A DNA stretch of 34,562 nucleotides from Paraglaciecola polaris LMG 21857. GTDB lineage: Bacteria > Pseudomonadota > Gammaproteobacteria > Enterobacterales > Alteromonadaceae. The stretch lies in NCBI RefSeq assembly GCF_000315055.1, contig NZ_BAER01000112.1, forward strand, positions 1 to 34,562, written 5' to 3'. Positions 61 through 22,446 of this stretch are shown piece by piece. The first letter of the stretch is position 1; each line of letters begins with the position of its first letter. The notes under the pieces were generated by a model. The model did not search any database, was not told the DNA's origin, and saw nothing but the letters and a program-made list of their open reading frames with translations. The translations under genes were made by a program, and so were the position numbers.

Positions 61-1212
61 TTACTCTGAATTCGACACCCTTTTGGCCAAGACAGGTACC
101 AAATAAGCAGACAGTAAAGCGGTAACCAAAGTCATTACTACTAATGCGATCATCGTATGATGGGATAAATGCTGTTGTTGAAAACCTATGCTCGCTACTA
201 TTAATGCTACCTCTGCTCGCGGTACCAACGCCATGCCCAATAACCACCGTTCACTATTCTTTAACCGGGATGCTATGACCCAAGGGCTAAATAATTTACC
301 GGCAATGGCAGCCAGTATTATGAGCATAATAAACCCTATGATTTCCATGCTGTTAATGTTGAGGACGGTGATTTGCATCCCCACGCTCAAAAAAAATAGC
401 GGAATGATATAGTTAGCAACTTGGTTGAAGAAACCCACATCCCGCAACATATCGTCATGTTTAAAGTAAGCAAAAATTGCTCCCGCAACGAAACCGCCAA
501 CAACAGGAGAGAGTCCATTGAGCAGTGTTACCCATGCGGCAATGATAGCCAACACCGTAAAGCTGATGCGACGGAAAAACGTCTTTTTAATTATACTTGT
601 CTTTCTCAACAGCCATCCCATCAATGCTAGGGCAAAGCACAATAATAAAAGCACCAACAAGCTAAAAAGCAGAGAAAATACAATTTGACTCAGTCCGTTA
701 CTAATGGTCAAGCCAACATGCACCGCAGCCAATATATAAAGTACTAAAACATCGTCTACAATGGCTGCTGCGAGTAATATTTGTCCTATTTTACTACTAA
801 GCAGCCCAACTTTGTGCAAAATGGGAACACTCAAACCAATACTGGTTGCTGACAAAGCCACACCAACATACAGCGCTTCATCCAGCCTATTATTGATAAA
901 AAAACTGGCCATAAAACCCAGTAACATACTCAATACAATACCAGCCAAACCCACCATCACTCCCGGCTTAATAGCAGCCATAAAAGAAGCCCAGCGAATT
1001 TCAAAACCTGCCGCAAATAAAATAAATACCACTATCCACTCTGTGACGAACCGCTCAACTTCGCCGTAACTAATCCAGTCAAGATAAAATGGACCAAGCA
1101 ACAGGCCAATAATGATCACAACGGCAGCTTGTGGTAGATTGGAACGTGTGAAAATCGGGTTCACAAATGCCAGTAACAAACCAGCTATTAACCAGGTCAA
1201 TAGAGTAAACAT
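61..1212 (-). CDS. Kef-type cation:proton antiporter (CPA2 family)
   Basis: Integral inner-membrane protein of about 383 residues that probably exchanges Na+ or K+ for H+. It has about 11-12 hydrophobic segments and no cytoplasmic RCK/TrkA-N domain, so it is the short membrane-only form. Family hallmarks are visible: SATSIGLSVP, the paired acidic residues in AAIVDDVLVL (the ion-binding DD pair of CPA2 proteins), and a late LVPRAEVALIVASIG segment. The ATG at 1212 is preferred over a GTG at 1221 because a GGTGG-type ribosome site lies just upstream of it. It follows the heptaheme cytochrome gene by about 90 bases on the same strand and may be cotranscribed, but its own expression cannot be excluded. 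The transported ion is not predictable from sequence alone. Confidence 0.88.
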   Translation of the reverse strand: MFTLLTWLIAGLLLAFVNPIFTRSNLPQAAVVIIIGLLLGPFYLDWISYGEVERFVTEWIVVFILFAAGFEIRWASFMAAIKPGVMVGLAGIVLSMLLGFMASFFINNRLDEALYVGVALSATSIGLSVPILHKVGLLSSKIGQILLAAAIVDDVLVLYILAAVHVGLTISNGLSQIVFSLLFSLLVLLLLCFALALMGWLLRKTSIIKKTFFRRISFTVLAIIAAWVTLLNGLSPVVGGFVAGAIFAYFKHDDMLRDVGFFNQVANYIIPLFFLSVGMQITVLNINSMEIIGFIMLIILAAIAGKLFSPWVIASRLKNSERWLLGMALVPRAEVALIVASIGFQQQHLSHHTMIALVVMTLVTALLSAYLVPVLAKRVSNSE

Positions 1213-1303
1213 CTGAACCACCTTCTATTTTGAAACACCTACATAGTGACATTACAACGACTAATACCGACGCTATTTACCAAGATTTTCAAATTTTCCT
1301 ATG

Positions 1304-2098
1304 TCAATGGTGTTTATACCAACCGGCACGCTTAATATCATTCCATGAAGTGCTTTGATGGCATGCGTAACACTCTTCTACTTTCGCGTTGAGCTCACCC
1401 GCTACTTGCGCTGATATCATTTTAAAATGCTGCATGTAATGGCTAGGCGGCGCTTCGTGACATTGATTACAGTCTAAAGACTGATTTGATGGATGAATAA
1501 ACTCAGGCAATGTCCATTGCCTTGTGCTGTGACATTGCACACAATCTTTGCCGAATAGACCAAAATGACGATCGTCGTTACTATGGCACGCAGGGCAGCT
1601 GAGCAAGGCTTCCTTTGGCATTACATCTGGGTGAACAAATATGGGATCCGGTTTCCGACTATTAGCTAATAGACTTTCTAAAAAGGCTAATGTCGCAGTA
1701 CCCTCATCAAACGGAACATTGGGATCTGGCAACATGTTTAAACCTACGTTCACCAGTGCTTCGTGATCCATTTGAGAAATTGAGGCCAACTTACCTTTAT
1801 GCTCCTTATGACAGGATGCACACTCAGCCACATCCGCGTGAAATGCCGTGGGCTGACGCTGAAGAATATGCGTGTCGTTAGCATGGCAGACAACACAGTT
1901 ATCTCTTGTTACACCAGTAGCCGGTGTATGGCAGCCTAAACAATCTGTTTCCATAAACGCATGGGCTGCACTTAAATCCCCCGGACTTACCGCGCTTTCC
2001 CAATTTACATCAGGAATTGAATCTGGGGAGTGAACAAAGTGGCTAATCAGCGCAACAATTGCGATGAGAGCCATGGCTAACCAAAAGAACTTTTTCAT
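1304..2098 (-). CDS. Heptaheme periplasmic c-type cytochrome, membrane anchored
   Basis: A 264-residue protein with seven CxxCH heme-attachment motifs, starting at about residues 53, 68, 93, 168, 186, 210 and 243. It begins with an uncleaved-looking signal anchor (residues 4-22), so the heme domain should face the periplasm. The motifs fall in two groups (three, then four) separated by about 70 residues without a heme motif. A longer in-frame extension to 2191 exists but would add a non-signal N-terminus. The ATG at 2098 overlaps the stop of the cytochrome b gene as ATGA, which fixes the start by translational coupling. Its likely role is to accept electrons from the neighbouring cytochrome b and pass them to periplasmic acceptors. 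The terminal acceptor is unknown; this is not a recognisable NrfA, NapC or MtrA. Confidence 0.88.
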   Translation of the reverse strand: MKKFFWLAMALIAIVALISHFVHSPDSIPDVNWESAVSPGDLSAAHAFMETDCLGCHTPATGVTRDNCVVCHANDTHILQRQPTAFHADVAECASCHKEHKGKLASISQMDHEALVNVGLNMLPDPNVPFDEGTATLAFLESLLANSRKPDPIFVHPDVMPKEALLSCPACHSNDDRHFGLFGKDCVQCHSTRQWTLPEFIHPSNQSLDCNQCHEAPPSHYMQHFKMISAQVAGELNAKVEECYACHQSTSWNDIKRAGWYKHH

Positions 2099-2847
2099 AA
2101 CCATCTCAACCCAAAATAAATTTCTGTGCTGATATGGAAAACCAGCAGCACATACAAGATAAGTGAAATAGCGATATGAAACTTCAACCACCGTTTAAAC
2201 CAAAGCTTCGCGGTGTCGTGGATCTTTATGCTGTAATCCACGTCCGACAAACTGTCTATTAGACGAAAAACATCACGCTCATAGTTTCTAGGTGAAGAAC
2301 GTTCCCCAAAAATTGCGGTAATCGCGGGCATTAACGTTCGATGATTGCTTGACAAACTGCGTATACGTGTCGAGCAAACTCGGTTGCGCAGTTCCTGCTT
2401 GGCGATGTCCAACCTAGAATTTAATTCTTCTTTGAGGACCGTCTTATCTCTTAGCCGAGACGAAATGAGACTGAGTATATATCTACCTATAAAGCCGCTT
2501 ATGACAACGGTGAGCATCAGAAGGACCAGCGCTATCCCGACAAAACTGTCAAATTTATGGGCACTATGCAGAATTCCTAGAATTGGCCCTAGTACACCCG
2601 CATATATGTGTAACAGAAGCAAAGATGGCATGGAAACACGCTTTGTCACCCATTTTCTTAGTGGCTTGATGCGCTTTATAATGAGATAAAATAGCGGCCA
2701 GAACATGAAGAAGGCTGCCACAATACCTATCATGCTGCCGTTGAAGCTACCGGGAAAATTAGGATCACGGTGCCAAACAAACCCTCCCCATAAAAGCAGC
2801 ATCAAAAAAACAAGCATCGTTACGATATGACGTTCTTGATTATTCAT
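2095..2847 (-). CDS. Two-heme cytochrome b-like membrane protein
   Basis: A 250-residue protein with five predicted membrane segments (about 9-26, 37-57, 74-93, 103-125 and 224-246). Segment 3 carries His80 and His94 and segment 5 carries His224 and His238. Both pairs are spaced by 14 residues, the spacing by which b-type cytochromes and ferric-reductase-like proteins ligate two stacked hemes across a membrane. A soluble charged loop of about 90 residues (130-220) lies between segments 4 and 5. It starts 4 bases after the stop of the flavin reductase gene with a GAGG ribosome site, and its stop overlaps the start of the heptaheme cytochrome. The context suggests it carries electrons from the reductase to the periplasmic cytochrome. 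The assignment to an exact family is inference from the His pattern. Confidence 0.78.
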   Translation of the reverse strand: MNNQERHIVTMLVFLMLLLWGGFVWHRDPNFPGSFNGSMIGIVAAFFMFWPLFYLIIKRIKPLRKWVTKRVSMPSLLLLHIYAGVLGPILGILHSAHKFDSFVGIALVLLMLTVVISGFIGRYILSLISSRLRDKTVLKEELNSRLDIAKQELRNRVCSTRIRSLSSNHRTLMPAITAIFGERSSPRNYERDVFRLIDSLSDVDYSIKIHDTAKLWFKRWLKFHIAISLILYVLLVFHISTEIYFGLRWL

Positions 2848-2851
2848 AAAA

Positions 2852-4831
2852 TCATGCCTCGACGTCCACCGAAGTTTTTGGGATAGACTGGCATGCCAGA
2901 ATATAACCCTGTTGTCTATCTTGTTCTTCTAGCCCATCGTCAACGTCCATATCGACGGTTCCTTTGAGAAGCTTCACTTTGCAGCTTCCACAAGTTCCCG
3001 AGCGACATGAACTGTCTATTTCCACATCTAATGATTCAGCAACATCCAAGACCGTCTCGTCTTGTTGAGCAATGGCTTTTTTCTGTGACTTTGCAAAACT
3101 GATTTCGAAACCAGATTTAGAGCTTGATTTATTACCTTCAGGAATATCACTTGGCTTCCTTTTGGGAGGGGCGGAGCCAAACGCTTCGCTCTTAACCCTG
3201 TCAGCAGCCATTCCAAGCTGGACTAGCGTTTGTGTCGTTGCCTCCATCATGGCAGTCGGCCCGCATATGTGGGCTGTTTTCGCTGGCAAGTCTGGCACAA
3301 AGTCATTGATGAGCTGCGATGTTAATCGACCTTGCGGTCCCATCCATGAGGTCCCCTCCGCCCGCGTCATACTCACCAAAACATGCAGATTTTTGTGCCG
3401 CGCTTGAAGATACTGAAGCTCTCGCTCAAATATAAAATCATTCGAAGAACGAGCACAGAATAGGAAGTAGATATTCCCTTCCCAACAACGAGCCGTTAAA
3501 TATCGTACTGCACTCATCATCGGCGTAATACCAACCCCACCAGATATCAATACAACGCTATCTTCACCGCTACCATTAAAATAGAATTTCCCATTCGGTG
3601 CTTTGATTGCAAGTTCATCTCCGATTGACACGTGATCATGCATAAACCGCGACACAAGTCCCTGTTCTTCGCGCTTAATCGTCACTTCAAAATAATCTCT
3701 TTCTGTGGGAGACGATGCGATAGTGTATGAGCGTTTCGTCACTTTAGCCTGCCCGGGTATCGTTAAACTAAACGTGACAAACTGGCCTGGCTCATAATCG
3801 AAAGGCAAGCTACTGCCATCTGTAGCGGCCAAACGAAATGTTTTCACATCGTGAGTTTCACTAAAGATCCCTATTACCTGAAAATTACCACTGAAAACAA
3901 TTTTTTTACTCACAGTAGCTTGTATTGCATTAGGGCTAGATGATTCTGGTTTGAGCTGGCTTGTCGTTGAACTATCAATTTCTTGCCGTGAACTCTTCTC
4001 AGGGGTTGCCGATCTTGAATCGTTTTGTAACTGACTCGGTGGTGATTCACTTTCGAGCTCCTTAAGCAAGGCCCCAGCTCTTCGCATCTTAAATCCATAC
4101 ATCCAAAACATGACACTAGCAAAAAAGAGCAGAATGAGCATTACGCCTGTGTGAATAGGAGACATACCAAAAATTAAAGCGCGATCTGTTCCCTCACTTG
4201 TTGGTAACAAGTTCATCTGACTCTTAAACCAAGTAAGCGCAACTCTTCTCGGCTCTTGACCTTCTGCAATAACACGCTTGGCCGCCAGACCGCTATCGTA
4301 TTGGCTTAAGCCTTGGTCGATAAGCGTAACCGCCGACTGCATTTCAGAAAAATTTTGACGCCCGTCAGCTAAGGATAGTGCTGTAAATCCGTTTATCATA
4401 AGTTGGTTGCCGGCCAGCATTCTCGCCACCGCTTTGTCTAACACTTCTTGCTTTTTCTCTACTGGTAGTTGAGATAGCCGCATAAGGGATGGATAGAGAT
4501 CTTTAGGTTTGGGAGCCCCCATCTTTTCCATCATTTTGTCCATTCCTTTAGCCATTCCAGGACCCATTCCTTGTTCTTGCCTCATTCCTTTTTTAATATC
4601 TTTACCTTGAGCTGGTGATGTTTCTAGTCCAGTGAACGGTTCTTCGGGAGTTTGGGGGGCTAAAGATTGTTCAGCATATATATCAGGGTGATGACCTTCA
4701 TGTTCCTGCTGAGACTGTTGTGCGGCACACGGCCACACAAGTAAAAAAGCAACAAAACTGAATATCCGTTTCAGCTTACCACTAGCTAAGTCTATTTTTT
4801 TTTCCATGAGTATCAAATTCATTACAAACAT
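2852..4831 (-). CDS. Membrane-tethered FAD/NAD(P)H/2Fe-2S oxidoreductase
   Basis: A 659-residue fusion. Residues about 20-38 look like a signal segment ending in CAA. Residues 39-220 form a probably periplasmic region with a Met/Gly/Lys-rich stretch (82-105) and a helical domain (113-210). A second membrane helix follows (about 225-246), then MRR, which marks the cytoplasmic side. Residues 310-550 are a ferredoxin-NADP reductase-type module with the FAD motif KRSYTIASSP, the nucleotide-binding SGGVGITPMMSA and CGPTAMME. Residues 570-659 are a plant-type 2Fe-2S ferredoxin with Cys609, Cys614, Cys617 and Cys647 (C-x4-C-x2-C-x29-C). This places NAD(P)H oxidation in the cytoplasm. The start abuts the stop of the upstream gene; an internal ATG at 4807 is an alternative. 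The natural electron acceptor is probably the cytochrome b encoded next. Confidence 0.88.
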   Translation of the reverse strand: MFVMNLILMEKKIDLASGKLKRIFSFVAFLLVWPCAAQQSQQEHEGHHPDIYAEQSLAPQTPEEPFTGLETSPAQGKDIKKGMRQEQGMGPGMAKGMDKMMEKMGAPKPKDLYPSLMRLSQLPVEKKQEVLDKAVARMLAGNQLMINGFTALSLADGRQNFSEMQSAVTLIDQGLSQYDSGLAAKRVIAEGQEPRRVALTWFKSQMNLLPTSEGTDRALIFGMSPIHTGVMLILLFFASVMFWMYGFKMRRAGALLKELESESPPSQLQNDSRSATPEKSSRQEIDSSTTSQLKPESSSPNAIQATVSKKIVFSGNFQVIGIFSETHDVKTFRLAATDGSSLPFDYEPGQFVTFSLTIPGQAKVTKRSYTIASSPTERDYFEVTIKREEQGLVSRFMHDHVSIGDELAIKAPNGKFYFNGSGEDSVVLISGGVGITPMMSAVRYLTARCWEGNIYFLFCARSSNDFIFERELQYLQARHKNLHVLVSMTRAEGTSWMGPQGRLTSQLINDFVPDLPAKTAHICGPTAMMEATTQTLVQLGMAADRVKSEAFGSAPPKRKPSDIPEGNKSSSKSGFEISFAKSQKKAIAQQDETVLDVAESLDVEIDSSCRSGTCGSCKVKLLKGTVDMDVDDGLEEQDRQQGYILACQSIPKTSVDVEA

Positions 4832-5359
4832 TTACATATCTTCATTGAGGTAAGGTTCAACTTGGGTTTCTCGTAAACGTTCGATTTGTTTCGACATTAG
4901 CACTTCTACAACGTTACCAACGAGTTTGATAAAATAAAGCCGGATGGATGTATTGGGCGACTCTACTTCTGATGGGGTCGCCTTTATTTCTTTTAAATCA
5001 GGCTCTCCTGAGGACGTTAATTCACCTAAATGTGTTCCAAGTTGTTCGCGTTTAATTACGTTTTGACTTTGAAACTTCTTCCATTGACACTTCCCCTCCT
5101 CAATAAAATTGACTGATTTACCAGTTAAATGGTGCTGTTCCGTGGAGTTCAAAAATAAATCAACTTCCCCGAAGTGGTATAGGTGAGGAGCGTTTTTATA
5201 TCCCCGCAGTGTCGTTTTTAGGTTGACGTCGTCTTTGACAATGTGAATCTTGGGATGAACGCCGATCATAGGCAAGTTCTTCATCAGCTTATACATACAT
5301 GAATTCTGGGGCTTCATCGCGTTCATTTTACCTTTCATACTTATTTGTGTTGGCGCCAT
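4832..5359 (-). CDS. C-terminal part of a split secreted protein, unrecognised
   Basis: An open frame of 175 residues from the first ATG. The same frame stays open upstream to about 5446, adding roughly 30 residues that join directly to the signal-peptide ORF at 5398-5637 if one extra base is read in the A8 run at 5435-5442. The joined product would be about 268 residues. The sequence is polar and basic, with a few hydrophobic beta-like stretches, and I recognise no family. On its own it has no signal peptide and no clear ribosome site. Its TAA is immediately followed by the ATG of the flavin reductase gene, so it sits in the redox operon and could be a periplasmic partner. It could also be a dead gene if the frameshift is a real mutation. 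Confidence 0.55.
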   Translation of the reverse strand: MAPTQISMKGKMNAMKPQNSCMYKLMKNLPMIGVHPKIHIVKDDVNLKTTLRGYKNAPHLYHFGEVDLFLNSTEQHHLTGKSVNFIEEGKCQWKKFQSQNVIKREQLGTHLGELTSSGEPDLKEIKATPSEVESPNTSIRLYFIKLVGNVVEVLMSKQIERLRETQVEPYLNEDM

Positions 5360-5397
5360 GCTTACAGCACTTTGTTCAATAGGAATATTGTTTTTCT

Positions 5398-5637
5398 CTA
5401 CTGTAGTAACCTGAGTATCTGACAGGTTAGATTCTTTTTTTTCAGGTTATTATTCCCCTTCTCAACGGCATTTTGAATTTGGCTTAAACCATCAACATGT
5501 GCTGGTTTAATTGGGGTATGGATGATTTCAACAGAATCATTAACCATCCTATCCCTACTTTGCTTACGCTCTTCTGCCAATGATACACACGAAGCTAATG
5601 CTGACGTCAGCGACAAACAAAGCGTTTTTAAGTACAT
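5398..5637 (-). CDS. N-terminal signal-peptide part of the split protein
   Basis: A 79-residue ORF whose first 20 residues form a signal peptide (hydrophobic core LCLSLTSALASCVSLA) followed by a charged segment. After residue 68 the frame runs through an A8 tract and ends with 11 residues (NLTCQILRLLQ) that look like out-of-frame coding. Reading one base back at the tract continues instead into the frame of 4832-5359 without a stop. This is the secreted N-terminus of one protein encoded in two frames. The ribosome site is weak: an AAGG lies about 14 bases before the ATG. Whether the join occurs by programmed frameshifting, by transcript slippage, or only appears broken through a sequencing error in the homopolymer cannot be settled here. 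Confidence 0.55.
   Translation of the reverse strand: MYLKTLCLSLTSALASCVSLAEERKQSRDRMVNDSVEIIHTPIKPAHVDGLSQIQNAVEKGNNNLKKKNLTCQILRLLQ
5408..5442 (-). promoter_or_regulatory. Candidate -1 frameshift signal (A AAA AAG plus hairpin)
   Basis: On the coding strand the zero frame reads CTG AAA AAA AAG, so the heptamer A AAA AAG (5440 down to 5434) is in the frame used by the E. coli dnaX frameshift site. Four bases downstream is a 7-bp hairpin: TAACCTG (5429-5423) and CAGGTTA (5413-5407), with a 9-base loop. An AAGGGG motif lies about 12-14 bases upstream of the slippery run and could act as an internal Shine-Dalgarno stimulator. A -1 shift here joins the two ORFs exactly. The A8 run could also cause RNA polymerase slippage. 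Confidence 0.5.
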
Positions 5638-5711
5638 TAAACGTAACTTAAGCCTTACTTTTTTTCATGAACTAAAAAACTCCATAATCACTATAATGCA
5701 AGCAACATTAT

Positions 5712-6065
5712 CTAATCGTCTGCAAACTCAACCATGTCGTATTGAATGACATCACCCGTCACCACAACAGCGTTAGCAAAGTGCTTGTCTTTCTTTTCAC
5801 CCAGACGTATTTTACCAACAAACTCTCTGGTATAACCTGATTCGCCTTCAGCGGTCACGCTAGCGTCATAAGCCGTCCGATATACGTTAAATACAGAGTG
5901 TTCTTTTAAGCTGTCTGTATCTGAGACACATACCAGTACTTCCTGATCATCAATAGCAACGATTTGTCCGCTCATGATGTAGTCGTGATAAACCTGACTT
6001 GCACATCCACTTAAAAAAATAAGGGATAATGCAATAATTATTAACGGCCTAAATGCATATTTCAT
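5712..6065 (-). CDS. Small outer-envelope lipoprotein
   Basis: A 117-residue protein with a type II signal peptide. The lipobox LSGC puts the lipidated cysteine near residue 21, followed by about 96 residues of mixed, mostly beta-like sequence. Ser at +3 (CAS) suggests outer-membrane sorting. A strong AAGGAG ribosome site precedes the ATG. I recognise no named family. The same architecture appears in the disrupted copy at 7006-7333: SGCAS, then YHxY, SGQxV and a conserved Cys-x-x-Asp-Thr/Ser, so the two are paralogs from a local duplication. The role is unknown; by position it belongs to the metal/redox envelope block. Confidence 0.72.
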   Translation of the reverse strand: MKYAFRPLIIIALSLIFLSGCASQVYHDYIMSGQIVAIDDQEVLVCVSDTDSLKEHSVFNVYRTAYDASVTAEGESGYTREFVGKIRLGEKKDKHFANAVVVTGDVIQYDMVEFADD

Positions 6066-6192
6066 ATTTTGCTCCTTAGTTATATTAACTCAATTTACTG
6101 ATTCACCTTGAGAGGATAAGACGCTTGCGTACTCCTGTCATAGACTCACATGAGCACGGATTTTAAGTGCCTTTATCCTCAAAATGGATAAC

Positions 6193-6636
6193 TTATTTTT
6201 TGTGCTCATGAACCATTTTACTTTCCTCTACCGTATGCCCCATTACTTGCTCCATCATTTGCTCCATCATCATTAAGCGTTTTTCCATATTAGATGTAGA
6301 GAGCATAGCTTCAGACTTTTTCATTTTGTCCATACTGTGTTTACCCATGGAATGCCCCATGCCTTTATTGTCGCCATGCATTATCGTCATCATATCTTCC
6401 ATGCTTCTGCCATGCTTGTGCAGCAACTCTTGACGTTTTTCGGGGTCAGTTTCGTTCTTAACTTCTTCTAGTAAAGTGTTCATTTTAGACATATGACGCT
6501 GCATTTTTTCCATTTTTGCTTCATCCATCATGCCCATAGACATGGGATTTTTGTCACTATATTGCTGCGCGTTAACGGTTGTTACAGGTGAGATGACTAA
6601 CAATGAAGTGATCGCCAGTGTTGCTATTGTTTTCAT
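6193..6636 (-). CDS. Met/His-rich periplasmic protein, possible metal binder
   Basis: A 147-residue protein with a cleavable signal peptide ending near VNAQ (about residue 23). The mature part contains about 25 Met and 9 His in helical, charged surroundings, with clusters such as MSMGMMDEAKMEKM, MEDMMTIMHG and RLMMMEQMMEQVMGH. Met/His-rich periplasmic proteins of this kind commonly bind Cu(I)/Cu(II) or silver, which would fit the CopL-like gene in the same block. That role is inference. There are no Cys residues and no enzyme motif. An AGGA ribosome site precedes the ATG. The flavin reductase at 2852-4831 carries a similar short Met-rich stretch, which suggests a shared metal theme. Confidence 0.68.
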   Translation of the reverse strand: MKTIATLAITSLLVISPVTTVNAQQYSDKNPMSMGMMDEAKMEKMQRHMSKMNTLLEEVKNETDPEKRQELLHKHGRSMEDMMTIMHGDNKGMGHSMGKHSMDKMKKSEAMLSTSNMEKRLMMMEQMMEQVMGHTVEESKMVHEHKK

Positions 6637-6758
6637 AATATATTCCTACTTTTTATGCGCCTGATTGCGCGGTGACTACATTATAATTTTTGAGCTATAC
6701 CAAACTCTAAACCTGCGCATTAAACACAAGTCAAAAATGCCAAAATAAACCTAATTTT

Positions 6759-6878
6759 TTATACATATCTTTTTTTACTTTTCTCAGCAGTATGGCCCAT
6801 CAGTTTTCCGCATGTATTGCCACAACCGGTACCGACAACAAGACTGTGATTAAAATGATTTTGTTTAATAATTTTCAT
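6759..6878 (-). CDS. 39-residue Cys/His-containing peptide
   Basis: A short ORF preceded by a good GGAGAG ribosome site six bases before the ATG. The peptide has a basic N-terminus with two His, then GTGCGNTCGKLMGH, and a Lys-rich tail. The CxxxC and His residues could bind metal. The segment LMGHTAEKSKK resembles the C-terminus of the Met-rich protein downstream (VMGHTVEESKM), so it may be a shrunken paralog or a leftover of a duplication. It has no signal peptide. Expression is unproven. Confidence 0.35.
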   Translation of the reverse strand: MKIIKQNHFNHSLVVGTGCGNTCGKLMGHTAEKSKKRYV

Positions 6879-7005
6879 TACACTCTCCGTTAGTTTGATT
6901 GAAGCACCATTTATGTCGAGTTGAGCCTTGTTAATGCGAACTAAATTTAGTGCTGTTAATTTTTCGTTTACACATCACCTGAAAAAGAAAAGACACTCAT
7001 GCTTG

Positions 7006-7333
7006 TCAATTTTCACTGAGCTCCAGCATGTCATGTTTTTTAATTTCACCGTTGCTAACCGTTGTCAGGGCATAGTGTTGCTCCTTGATTTCGTTTATGC
7101 TCAGCGGGCCCATTGTATCCAGTCGATAAACTGACTCCCCAGTCTCAGTTGAGCCATAGATAAACACCGAGCGACGTACTTCAAACTGATGTGTTGTATT
7201 TAACTCTCTGGTATCAGCTACACTCCATCACGTCGTTACCACCCACTTTAACGACCTGACCACTCTTCACATATTTGTGATAAATAGGGCTGCTCGCACA
7301 TCCACTTGCTATTGTGATTATTGCCAATATCAT
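7006..7333 (-). pseudogene. Frameshifted paralog of the 5712-6065 lipoprotein
   Basis: Frame one (7333 to 7214) encodes a lipoprotein signal peptide with the lipobox ASGC, then ASSPIYHKYVKSGQVVKV and ends at a TGA after MECS. Shifting frame near 7217-7222 continues at once as VADTRELNTTHQFEV and runs 70 more residues to a stop at 7006. The reconstructed protein matches the intact lipoprotein along its length (SGCAS, YHxY, SGQ, Cys followed by DT). One missing base near TGTAGC explains the break. No strong ribosome site precedes 7333. This is a real disruption, or a sequencing error, in a duplicated gene. Confidence 0.72.
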
Positions 7334-7418
7334 CAACAATTTGAGGCTTACTCCCTACAGCCCATTTTTTGCTAGTGCGATACTGCATTGTCTTGTTTAT
7401 AAGCCTCCTTTTGTTCAA

Positions 7419-7958
7419 CTATTTCTTTCCTAGAAAACCAACTAATACGTTAATCTGTGCCGAAGTTAATGGCATTTTTGGCATTGCTGATGACGGGTTA
7501 TTAAATTGAGGATCAGTCAGTTTTTTCATAACAAACTCGCCCCCCCTTTGAGCAACTACGTTATCCAGCGCGGGGCCAAGCGCTCCCCCTTTGCCATTAA
7601 AACTGTGGCAGCCCTGACAGCCGAATTTTTTCATCAATGCACCACCGTCCATGACCGGCATGGTTGCCACATCTGCTACATTCTTAACGGGGCCTCCGGA
7701 TAGGGTTTTAAAAAAATCCATAACCGTTTCAGTTTCTTGACCGGTTAGGTGAGCTTTTTCGCGCATATGCGGCAAAATCACTGACCATTCCTGAGTTGAA
7801 AATTCCTGGACTGGCCTTGAATTATGGCAACGGGCACAATTGTTGTTGATGATCTCGGCACCGCTGCCCACCTCGGCAGCAATCGCTTGAGTAAATAGCG
7901 TTATTAACCCACCACCGAGTGTTAAAAGTAGTACGCTTAAAAGATGTAATTTTTTCAT
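7419..7958 (-). CDS. Periplasmic diheme cytochrome c
   Basis: A 179-residue protein with a signal peptide (cleavage probably after AIAA, about residue 28) and two heme sites, CARCH at 41-45 and CQGCH at 114-118. Met residues near the C-terminus (SAMPKMPLT) supply the likely axial ligand of the second heme. The two class I-like domains of about 65-70 residues each resemble soluble electron carriers that feed terminal oxidases or dehydrogenases. A GGGAAA ribosome site precedes the ATG. It starts 11 bases after the porin gene ends, so the two are probably one operon. It may exchange electrons with the heptaheme cytochrome or with an outer-membrane partner, but no specific partner is shown. Confidence 0.87.
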   Translation of the reverse strand: MKKLHLLSVLLLTLGGGLITLFTQAIAAEVGSGAEIINNNCARCHNSRPVQEFSTQEWSVILPHMREKAHLTGQETETVMDFFKTLSGGPVKNVADVATMPVMDGGALMKKFGCQGCHSFNGKGGALGPALDNVVAQRGGEFVMKKLTDPQFNNPSSAMPKMPLTSAQINVLVGFLGKK

Positions 7959-7969
7959 TTTAATTTCCC

Positions 7970-9136
7970 TTAGAATCCGTAGCTGTATTGAACCGCCAGG
8001 CGTTGGTCACCATCACCTTCCTCAATATCAGTTTCTTCGTAGCTAAATTTGATCACTGAGCGGGGATCCAACCAATAGTTGAGACCTGCGACCCAACGTT
8101 TTGCCTTGGCAAACTTATTGGTTTTGGCATATTCCACTACCAGTTCCGTCCCCCCTAATTGCGGCCAGATTTGGCCTGCTTGTAATACGCCTTGCAAATA
8201 CCAACCATTACGCTTAAAGGCATTAATAGTCTCTTCAGCGTGTTCATCTGCCTCTTCCAAGCCATCAGTTTCGGTTAAAATATACTCGCCACGTATTAGG
8301 TAGCGACTGCCAATGACATTGATATCCATTCCCTGGGCGGTGATACTCAGACGTTCTTCTTCATCGTACTTGGCAGTGTAATAAGAAGCCCCGATTTCAA
8401 TCGCAGGTAAAAAAGCGTAGGCGATGCGCCCACCGAAGGCTTTATTTTTATTGTTATCGCCACTGGTTGCTGCAAATTCCACCTCTGGAAACGCTTCAGT
8501 GTGCTCATCGACCACCTCTTCATCCTCAGCGTGATCTTCGATTATCTCATCACCATCATTATGTGCCTCTGCGCGGGCACCGTTGGTAACGTAAAGATCC
8601 AGGAATATTTTCTGTTGGGATGTAAAAAAGAAGGTTTGCTGAACAGCGATACCTACATCACTAAGGATCGGCAACAAAGGCGTCATGGCCTGGGCGCTGC
8701 CGTGAGAACCGTATATTCCCGGTGTCCAGGGGGTACGGTTGATCCAGCTAGGGTGAAAATTGGCACTGAACTGCCCAAAGGGTAATAAAAATTTACCGAC
8801 GGTAACCGTGGTAGTATCCGTTAGAAAATAATGAATGTCGGCATATTCAAGTTCAACTTCGGTTTCGCCCGCTTCATTGAGAGAGATTTCCGTTTCCGCT
8901 TCCACATGCATTTTGTCATTCAGGCTGAACAGAAATATAGGCACAAAACGCGCACTAAAGGCACTGCTATCTAACAAATCACTTTCTTCATATTTCACAT
9001 CACCATATCCGGCGATAACAAAACGTCCTTGCTCCCCTGCATCGTATGGTTGTGCCAGACTGGCGGCAGAAATAAGGTAAGCGGACATGCATGAGATTAA
9101 TTTAATTGAGTGATTTTTTACTATATTTGTGTGCAC
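7970..9136 (-). CDS. Outer-membrane beta-barrel porin-like protein
   Basis: A 388-residue protein with a signal peptide (about residues 10-29, ending SLAQ). Alternating amphipathic strands follow, ending in an aromatic C-terminus (VQYSYGF) typical of barrels recognised by the BAM complex. The segment VTVGKFLLPFGQF resembles phosphate-selective-porin and other anion-porin barrels. Residues 190-220 form a very acidic, His-containing loop, and a second such patch (EEADEHAEE) lies near residue 295, probably on the surface. The start is a GTG with an AAGGA ribosome site eight bases upstream. It lies between the CopL-like gene and the diheme cytochrome, suggesting metal or redox substrate passage. 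The substrate is unknown. Confidence 0.78.
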   Translation of the reverse strand: MHTNIVKNHSIKLISCMSAYLISAASLAQPYDAGEQGRFVIAGYGDVKYEESDLLDSSAFSARFVPIFLFSLNDKMHVEAETEISLNEAGETEVELEYADIHYFLTDTTTVTVGKFLLPFGQFSANFHPSWINRTPWTPGIYGSHGSAQAMTPLLPILSDVGIAVQQTFFFTSQQKIFLDLYVTNGARAEAHNDGDEIIEDHAEDEEVVDEHTEAFPEVEFAATSGDNNKNKAFGGRIAYAFLPAIEIGASYYTAKYDEEERLSITAQGMDINVIGSRYLIRGEYILTETDGLEEADEHAEETINAFKRNGWYLQGVLQAGQIWPQLGGTELVVEYAKTNKFAKAKRWVAGLNYWLDPRSVIKFSYEETDIEEGDGDQRLAVQYSYGF

Positions 9137-9872: not shown

Positions 9873-10352
9873 TTAGTTAGCATACCTATCTGGTTCTGAA
9901 GGTAACTCGAGGTGCTGGGGGATCCCCTCATAGAATAGGCCTCCCTTCTTTGTGAACCCAGGTAATATATTGATGCTCTTAAGGTGAAAGGCAGCCCACC
10001 TTATTTGAGCTTCACTTATCTTGTAATCCGAGGCCCTTTTTCTGACCTCTCTGCCTAATCTTATGATTGATAACACGCGCCGATGGCGAGTCGTATTGGC
10101 TTGAAATGCGCGCTCCCAATGTTGCTGCTGAGCGATGAGGCCGAGCAGTCTTAACAACCATTCAGCAAGCATCGCAATCAGTAGTAATATATCGAATCTT
10201 TTAATGCAGCGACTATTGCTGTGGCGTAGTCCCATTCCATATTGTGGACTTTTAATATCGCGGAAGGTTTCCTCTATTTGCATCCGTCTGGCGTACAAAG
10301 TGACAAGCTGTTTAGAATTGAATTTAACGTATTCCAGTATCTGAAGTTGCAT
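9873..10352 (-). mobile_element. IS4-family transposase, C-terminal remnant
   Basis: A 159-residue open frame that matches only the last third of an IS4-family DDE transposase. The diagnostic Y-x2-R-x3-E-x6-K signature is present (YARRMQIEETFRDIK), which carries the catalytic Glu. The two catalytic Asp residues and the N-terminal DNA-binding part are missing, so the element cannot move on its own. The 5' side runs straight into the end of the truncated ORF 10324-10770 with about 29 bases of overlap, which marks a deletion or insertion junction. I could not identify terminal inverted repeats or a target duplication. The remnant marks past rearrangement at the edge of the metal/redox block. Confidence 0.82.
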
Positions 10353-21845: not shown

Positions 21846-22446
21846 ATGAAAATCGTATTAATAGGCGCGACAGGCATGATTGGCAAAGCGGTCAGCAATG
21901 AACTGAAGGAGCATGAGATTATCAGCGCCGGTTTTAAAAACGGTCAATATCAAGTGGATATTGAAAATAGAGACCCAATTGAAGCTATGTTTGAGGACGT
22001 AGGCCAAGTTGATGCAGTCACTTCCACCACTGGTTTGATCGCGTTTGCTCCGCTAAATGAATTAACCATAGAACAGTTTAGAATGACTATTAATAACAAG
22101 ATTTTAGGCCATATAAACTTACTTCAAATAGCCAGTCAATATATTCGAGATGGTGGGAGTATCACCTTTACCAGCGGTTACGTGGCGCAAAACCCCATGC
22201 CAGGCTCTTCATCAGTCAGCCTGGTTAACGCTGCATTGGATGCCTTTGTTAAAGCGGCTGCACTTGAGCTGGGTTCAAAGCTTAGAATAAACACTGTTAG
22301 CCCACGGTTTATCAAAGATAACGATGACACTAATGGGTATGGACAGCACCGATGGCGTCAGTGCTGCCGATACAGCCAATGCCTACCGTCACGCTATTGA
22401 AAGCAATGAGACTGGTAAAGCATTTGACGTGGTAGATTACATTTAA
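21846..22446 (+). pseudogene. Short-chain dehydrogenase with a one-base frameshift near the end
   Basis: The frame starts at an ATG with GATGxxG-type cofactor binding (LIGATGMIGKAV), then has TSTTGL, SITFTSGYVAQ and INTVSPRF, typical of the atypical SDR family that lacks the YxxxK pair. After residue 158 it reads out of frame and stops at 22400. Removing one A at 22320-22321 restores D-T-M-T-L-M-G-M-D and continues KAFDVVDYI to a stop at 22446, giving 199 residues, the normal family length. It is therefore a broken gene or a sequencing error. It is divergent from the LysR regulator, a usual pairing. Confidence 0.8.

Follow-up and report, generated by a model that had tools for sequence, protein, structure and literature searches.

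The window, by which is meant the whole stretch of DNA that was analysed (34562 bp, the whole of its contig), carries on its minus strand what appears from sequence comparison to be a CpxP/Spy/CnrX-like periplasmic lipoprotein gene, in a split form that has been seen in no other species. The gene is frameshifted in this lineage alone, at a run of eight A residues, and on balance we think it rather probable that an indel broke it whilst it was loosely constrained and that some full-length product is rescued adventitiously. The zero-frame codons across the A run read CTG AAA AAA AAG AAT, and a -1 shift at the heptamer A AAA AAG contained in them fuses a 79-aa signal-peptide ORF, whose LASC we take to be the lipobox of a lipoprotein-type signal peptide, with a 175-aa ORF (4832-5359, ATG 5359) that sits within the open -1 frame. 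A dnaX-type frameshift site is expected to have an X XXY YYZ heptamer phased to the zero frame and, beyond it, a -1 frame that stays open, and this is the arrangement here. A first-pass annotation of the sequence had described this site (heptamer, AAGGGG, 4-nt spacer, 7-bp stem, joining -1 frame and a stop after 79 residues), and its geometry was found to be accurate on the minus strand, where the features are as follows.

5398..5637, minus strand: zero-frame ORF of 79 aa (ATG 5637), a lipoprotein-type signal peptide and linker, stopping just past the A run
5455..5460, minus strand: AAGGGG, a Shine-Dalgarno-like word (5460-5455) 14 nt 5' of the heptamer, from the sequence and from random-site counts
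5435..5442, minus strand: A8 run, followed by G at 5434
5434..5440, minus strand: slippery heptamer A AAA AAG (5440-5434) in zero-frame phase, from the sequence
5407..5429, minus strand: 7-bp hairpin TAACCTG (5429-5423) / CAGGTTA (5413-5407) with a 9-nt loop, separated from the heptamer by a 4-nt spacer
4832..5434, minus strand: -1 frame of 200 open codons, from GAA 5434 to the stop at 4832, predicted to encode linker, Cys/Met segment and helical CpxP/Spy/CnrX-like domain

That the -1 join is meaningful, as had been claimed, is borne out by the orthologs, which encode both halves in the same order as a single lipoprotein. A single ORF was found in 11/11 other matching genomes (395 were sampled from the family), and 16/16 distinct ortholog DNAs hold the gene in one frame and without an in-frame A6(A/G) heptamer; many of these 16 are close to each other, and L023 is counted among them though it is cut by a contig end. 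Left out of the 16 was G844, a class-wide match with an open frame of 314, and G131, which matches at 26% identity over 92 residues (E 3.5e-4) and has three internal stops, was not accepted as an ortholog, whilst two of the ten plasmid records with a match were used (pGLAAG01 and pAlt83_a). The first-pass annotation had proposed looking for the heptamer in orthologs and had taken a continuous frame in relatives as evidence against its own reading: the in-frame heptamer is present in 0/16 and the frame continuous in 16/16, which counts against a conserved programmed signal. A frame that is broken relative to intact orthologs, and in one lineage only, is what is expected of a pseudogene or frameshifted gene. 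Identity to the window gene is low in the orthologs, 34% over about 200 residues and 43% over 117 in the best case, and the genome searches, which above genus level were samples of larger groups, brought up no ortholog of intermediate distance. No relative was retrieved when the window protein alone was compared with genome contigs; a sampled class-wide genome search gave one distant match (G844) besides the species' own genome, viral contigs gave no match to the window gene, and the literature searches brought up no paper on this gene, only papers on frameshifting, slippage, hydrogenases and Alteromonas or on unrelated subjects. The gene terminates with ATGA in most orthologs; in the annotation of pGLAAG01 and pAlt83_a, the next gene begins within it. 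It is very improbable that the window holds two separate genes, a small 79-aa lipoprotein and an independently started 175-aa protein: both ORFs do exist as separate protein database entries, but the orthologs unite the two halves in matching order, ATG 5359 lacks a Shine-Dalgarno word and the 175-aa ORF lacks a signal peptide (both read by eye), and the two-gene reading was rejected on the ortholog evidence.

The split state recurs in other assemblies. The 79-aa form is identical in P0018, which lies on a 124305-bp contig, and is present with two changes as P0019, whilst the 175-aa form is present with one change as P0001 (the protein database gives 5 member sequences and 1 contig for each of P0001 and P0019). 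P0018 may come from a repeat assembly of the isolate sequenced here, which is impossible for P0019 and P0001 because their sequences differ. At a homopolymer in a draft assembly of 146 contigs one naturally suspects that the A run was miscalled or misassembled, but this is scarcely credible given that other assemblies yield the same split products, in two cases with differences between strains, and that no clear homopolymer-linked break was seen in a 507-kb sample of the species' own genome (40 stretches and the window). This census comprised 201 A/T runs of 7 or more, of which 112 lay within a single coding frame, 73 in noncoding sequence, 14 close to the edge of a coding region and 2 close to a same-strand frame switch, and both of these switches have a start and a Shine-Dalgarno-like word near the stop, like gene junctions; it caught 83/120 planted deletions and would miss about a third. 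Homopolymer errors in this assembly look rare, and sequencing error was rejected on the basis of the other assemblies and the census. The supposition of the earlier reading that no base had been gained or lost in sequencing is upheld by the recurrence of the split products.

A homopolymer at the break also raises phase variation, in which replication slippage would change the length of the A run and toggle a surface lipoprotein within the population. In two orthologs read by eye, the approximately corresponding position has just a short A run, and in the window three A runs, 7 to 9 long, fall inside a stretch of 900 bases. Such switching is nonetheless improbable: P0001, P0018, P0019 and the window are all in the split state, eight A's are short for a contingency locus, and no full-length form of this species' protein was found among 5.77 billion proteins, in a search that reaches only relatives sharing exact words.

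The capacity of the host for -1 shifting can be judged from its own dnaX (L078), in which an in-frame AAAAAAG, preceded by GAAGAGGAG, is found at open-frame codon 571. The heptamer stands behind GAGGAG and a -1 stop follows one codon after the shift, and the gene looks to carry the canonical dnaX frameshift signal. A one-mismatch pattern search, which is not exhaustive, found two tRNA-Lys(UUU) genes and no CUU gene, and the host appears to combine AAG decoded by tRNA-Lys(UUU) only with the heptamer in dnaX, the equipment required for dnaX-type shifting. According to the sections of PMC4066793 used here, few heptamers shift more efficiently in E. coli than A_AA.A_AA.G does in the presence of stimulators. 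The dnaX heptamer, the tRNA-Lys(UUU) complement and the efficiency of the heptamer in E. coli together make some -1 shifting likely at the window site. The site resembles E. coli-type dnaX in having A AAA AAG, an upstream Shine-Dalgarno word and a downstream hairpin in the same order; it differs in that it is absent from the orthologs examined, its hairpin is AT-rich and weak, its shift yields the longer product and its gene is whole in relatives. The same sections of PMC4066793 place the Shine-Dalgarno-like word 6-17 nt upstream of a dnaX-type slip site, and AGGGG in the window conforms, with a gap of 15 to the second base of the motif, as do 540/6000 random sites by chance.

The flanking signal is modest, suggestive rather than compelling, its statistics having been chosen after the fact. 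The hairpin has an energy of -7.3 kcal/mol; in a 30-nt segment it gives a z of -1.9 (11/200 shuffles as good) and in 45 nt a z of -1.1 (24/200), whilst folding over 60 nt, including a second hairpin, gives -2.8 (1/200) and folding over 65 nt starting just before AAGGGG gives -0.3. The chance baseline was 6000 random in-frame sites within ORFs of the same genome: besides the 540 with a qualifying Shine-Dalgarno-like word, 877 had an equally good hairpin, 80 had word and hairpin jointly, and 78 reached the duplex energy of AAGGGG with the 16S tail. At 36 in-frame A AAA AA(A/G) sites in the same ORFs, the word was found 3 times, the hairpin 4 times and both together at none. The heptamer and its phase carry little weight, because wherever an A run passes into G, an indel in the run suffices to leave such a heptamer (an argument, not a test), and the joining frame was set aside as evidence for programming since it too follows from an indel in the run. 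It had been argued that slippery site, spacer, stem and frame together are more than a random indel would give; the parts are all present, but the argument is weakened by the fact that heptamer and frame follow from the indel. Were the gene merely decaying, it would be a clean warning that a heptamer and frame at an A run are no independent evidence of programming.

A young but functional dnaX-type programmed -1 frameshift, with A8, AGGGG and hairpin under selection and setting the proportion of short to long product or keeping the lipoprotein at a low dose, seems to us unlikely, if not strongly so. It draws on a complete set of signal parts in working geometry, on the heptamer and early -1 stop of the species' dnaX and the finding of tRNA-Lys(UUU) genes alone, on the split form in other assemblies and on the 200 open codons past the site. 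It can also draw on P0019, in which a Leu-to-His change falls in the overlap: a lone base change could yield it only as CTC to CAC, which would be silent in the -1 frame and, at 5414 (placed there from the protein), would add a base pair, turning the 7-bp stem of -7.3 kcal/mol into an 8-bp stem of -8.4 kcal/mol, although one inferred substitution in the overlap proves nothing. Set against these points, the site is unconserved, the in-phase heptamer is explained by the indel, the hairpin is modest (11/200 shuffles), signature residues of the family are missing from the domain that lies beyond the shift, and the 79-residue product has no recognisable role.

Judged by gene order, the lipoprotein gene appears to belong to an electron-transfer cluster found in relatives alongside a HynSL-type [NiFe] hydrogenase. 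Its neighbours in the window are listed below.

61..1221, minus strand: CPA2/Kef-type antiporter, scoring under the NCBIfam cut-offs; the contig ends after this gene, at the point where relatives have the first hydrogenase genes
1304..2191, minus strand: multihaem cytochrome c3/c7
2095..2847, minus strand: membrane cytochrome b-like protein of 250 aa (putative role; no Pfam/NCBIfam match)
2852..4831, minus strand: FAD/NAD/2Fe-2S reductase of 659 aa, intact, its first base directly after the -1-frame stop
5712..6065, minus strand: 117-aa lipoprotein, conserved
6193..6636, minus strand: Met/His-rich secreted protein of 147 aa
7419..7958, minus strand: cytochrome c
7970..9136, minus strand: phosphate-selective-type porin

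On pGLAAG01 and pAlt83_a the cluster starts with (a porin,) cytochrome c, two small secreted proteins, the lipoprotein gene and the 2Fe-2S reductase, and continues with the cytochrome b-like protein, cytochrome c3, the antiporter, and hydrogenase maturation and small- and large-subunit genes. The Alteromonas HynSL cluster (orf1/cyt/orf2/hynD/hupH/hynS/hynL), as set out in the available part of PMC3102683, is comparable in that the same order stands upstream of the hydrogenase on pAlt83_a and pGLAAG01; it differs from this genome (completeness 100), which gave no match to PF00374, the hydrogenase large subunit, or to HypD. Amongst the other carriers, 6/12 have both PF00374 and HypD and 6/12 keep the gene whole without hydrogenase, so that the module can exist without the enzyme. 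Loss of hydrogenase is for that reason insufficient as the whole cause of decay and was set aside in that role. The accessory electron-transfer module (61-9136, minus strand) may serve another electron donor. From the layout of the genes, ribosomes stopping at 5398 would leave about 570 nt untranslated before the reductase, and reductase expression may be lowered. An ORF resembling, by eye, part of an IS4-type transposase lies beside the cluster (window 9873-10352, minus strand).

A comparison of the lipoprotein with its reductase neighbour points to reduced constraint. The window copy keeps 46/91 otherwise invariant residues whilst G410, a comparably distant intact ortholog, keeps 64/91; in the reductase the figures are 217/269 for the window and 204/269 for G410, and the gene-versus-reductase interaction has a z of -3.0 and a p of 0.003 with columns taken as independent. 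Invariant columns were defined from seven orthologs, four of them nearly alike, and G410 is the sole yardstick that has both genes; P0010 and P0011 keep 83/91 and 76/91 but are nearer to the other orthologs. For the adjacent 117-aa and 147-aa proteins (p117 and p147) the window keeps 56/76 and 55/85, p147 being rather diverged too. Constraint that is lower than in the neighbouring gene, as measured here against one yardstick species, is characteristic of a pseudogene. In addition, the window copy has lost parts of the family signature: CMGMMCKM is present as a shorter segment, LTxxQ lacks its Q and there are prolines in the second helix. The interpretation of the site as a programmed signal is partly supported: the join is real, whereas the lower conservation than in the reductase favours decay, as do the intact orthologs and the signature losses.

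The likeness to the CpxP/Spy/CnrX periplasmic helical proteins (LTXXQ PF07813, Metal_resist PF13801) resides in the helical domain of the lipoprotein. Pfam gave no match for either window piece, PF07813 scored 14.8 bits on the intact ortholog, below the curated 24.3, and a sequence search of solved structures gave a best E of 0.13, which is not meaningful. AlphaFold models had a pLDDT of 49 and 54, low overall, and the window piece was modelled as two long helices, which suggests that the prolines in the second helix do not show a lost fold. There are no further stops or indels downstream of the site, where 200 codons are open, as is expected if the break is recent. When drift without selection was simulated from the window sequence, the frame stayed stop-free in 30% of runs at 90% identity, 6.5% at 80% and 0.8% at 60%; since drift rarely keeps 200 codons open, the -1 frame was selected until recently or still is. 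The -1 frame has thus been protected for most of its history, and the break is either recent or bypassed.

Under the favoured account of an indel with adventitious rescue, the gene would have come under weak constraint in this lineage and an indel in the A run of the linker would have become fixed, both the order of these events and the fixation being presumed. Initiation at ATG 5637 would yield a product of 79 residues, most of them signal peptide and linker, and with the break on A AAA AAG some ribosomes would be expected to slip -1 (or RNA polymerase would slip), giving some full-length lipoprotein. AGGGG and the small hairpin may raise the full-length yield, though nothing shows selection for that. 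This account has to accommodate the 200 stop-free codons, the hydrogenase-less carriers with a whole gene, the rarity of word and hairpin together (80/6000 sites), the stem-lengthening variant of P0019 and the two-helix model of the window piece.

There are parallels for such rescue. Frameshifted genes of endosymbionts are rescued by slippage at poly-A tracts ('savior' or compensatory frameshifting), as described in the part of PMC5009743 that was drawn upon, and the window gene shares with those cases an A-run indel, an expectation of partial rescue and a broken product of no evident use; it differs in that the host has a 5.2-Mb genome and is not a reduced endosymbiont, in that rescue here is predicted, and in that its A8 falls short of the nine-base runs treated as slippage-prone in the portion of PMC1088944 consulted. 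The singletons and pseudogene clusters of GeneTack, in the extract of PMC3711429 used, are similar in that intact homologs support the frame transition and a single species is concerned, whereas the error singletons differ from the window site in that here flanking stimulators are present and the split is found in several assemblies. By the criteria in that extract, its lack of conservation would place the window site closer to pseudogenes and indels than to programmed sites. We find it rather unlikely that the site is a programmed -1 frameshift caught at birth, in which the linker A-run indel turned part of a metal/redox lipoprotein gene into a dnaX-type slip site that was kept rather than purged, with AGGGG and the stem (7 bp here and, by inference, 8 bp in another strain) being tuned to set the full-length fraction. 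The origins of recoding sites have mostly been inferred from old, conserved cases; with a gene that is whole in relatives and split in several assemblies, and with the species' own dnaX as an internal standard, the step from accident to rescue or programme becomes measurable.

The start of the gene has a feature of its own.

5659..5668, minus strand: ATG (5668) and A7 run behind GGAG (5683-5680), opening a 6-codon ORF that reads MKKSKA and stops

The frame of the 79-aa ORF reads KKVRLKLRL just 5' of ATG 5637, which lacks a good Shine-Dalgarno word, and initiation at ATG 5637 is possible. Together these observations hint at, but do not prove, a second A-run disturbance at the gene start, one that would need the opposite shift and is not explained by a -1 programme. 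The three minus-strand A runs (A9, A8 and A7) lie in less than 900 bases (window 4795-5665), near the reductase start, at the break and near the lipoprotein gene start, respectively. A promoter scan found 4 candidates as against 3.8 in shuffles, and a terminator-like 11-bp stem lies on the plus strand inside the 175-aa ORF (window 4955-4983), where 1 was found and 0.8 expected in shuffles. Elsewhere in the window, an SDR-family gene on the plus strand (21846-22446) looks, by eye, to be frameshifted too. There is no long homopolymer at its break; the listed ORF ends at 22400 with an atypical tail, and another frame runs on, with an ending that looks typical (...AADTANAYRHAIES...), to a stop at 22446.
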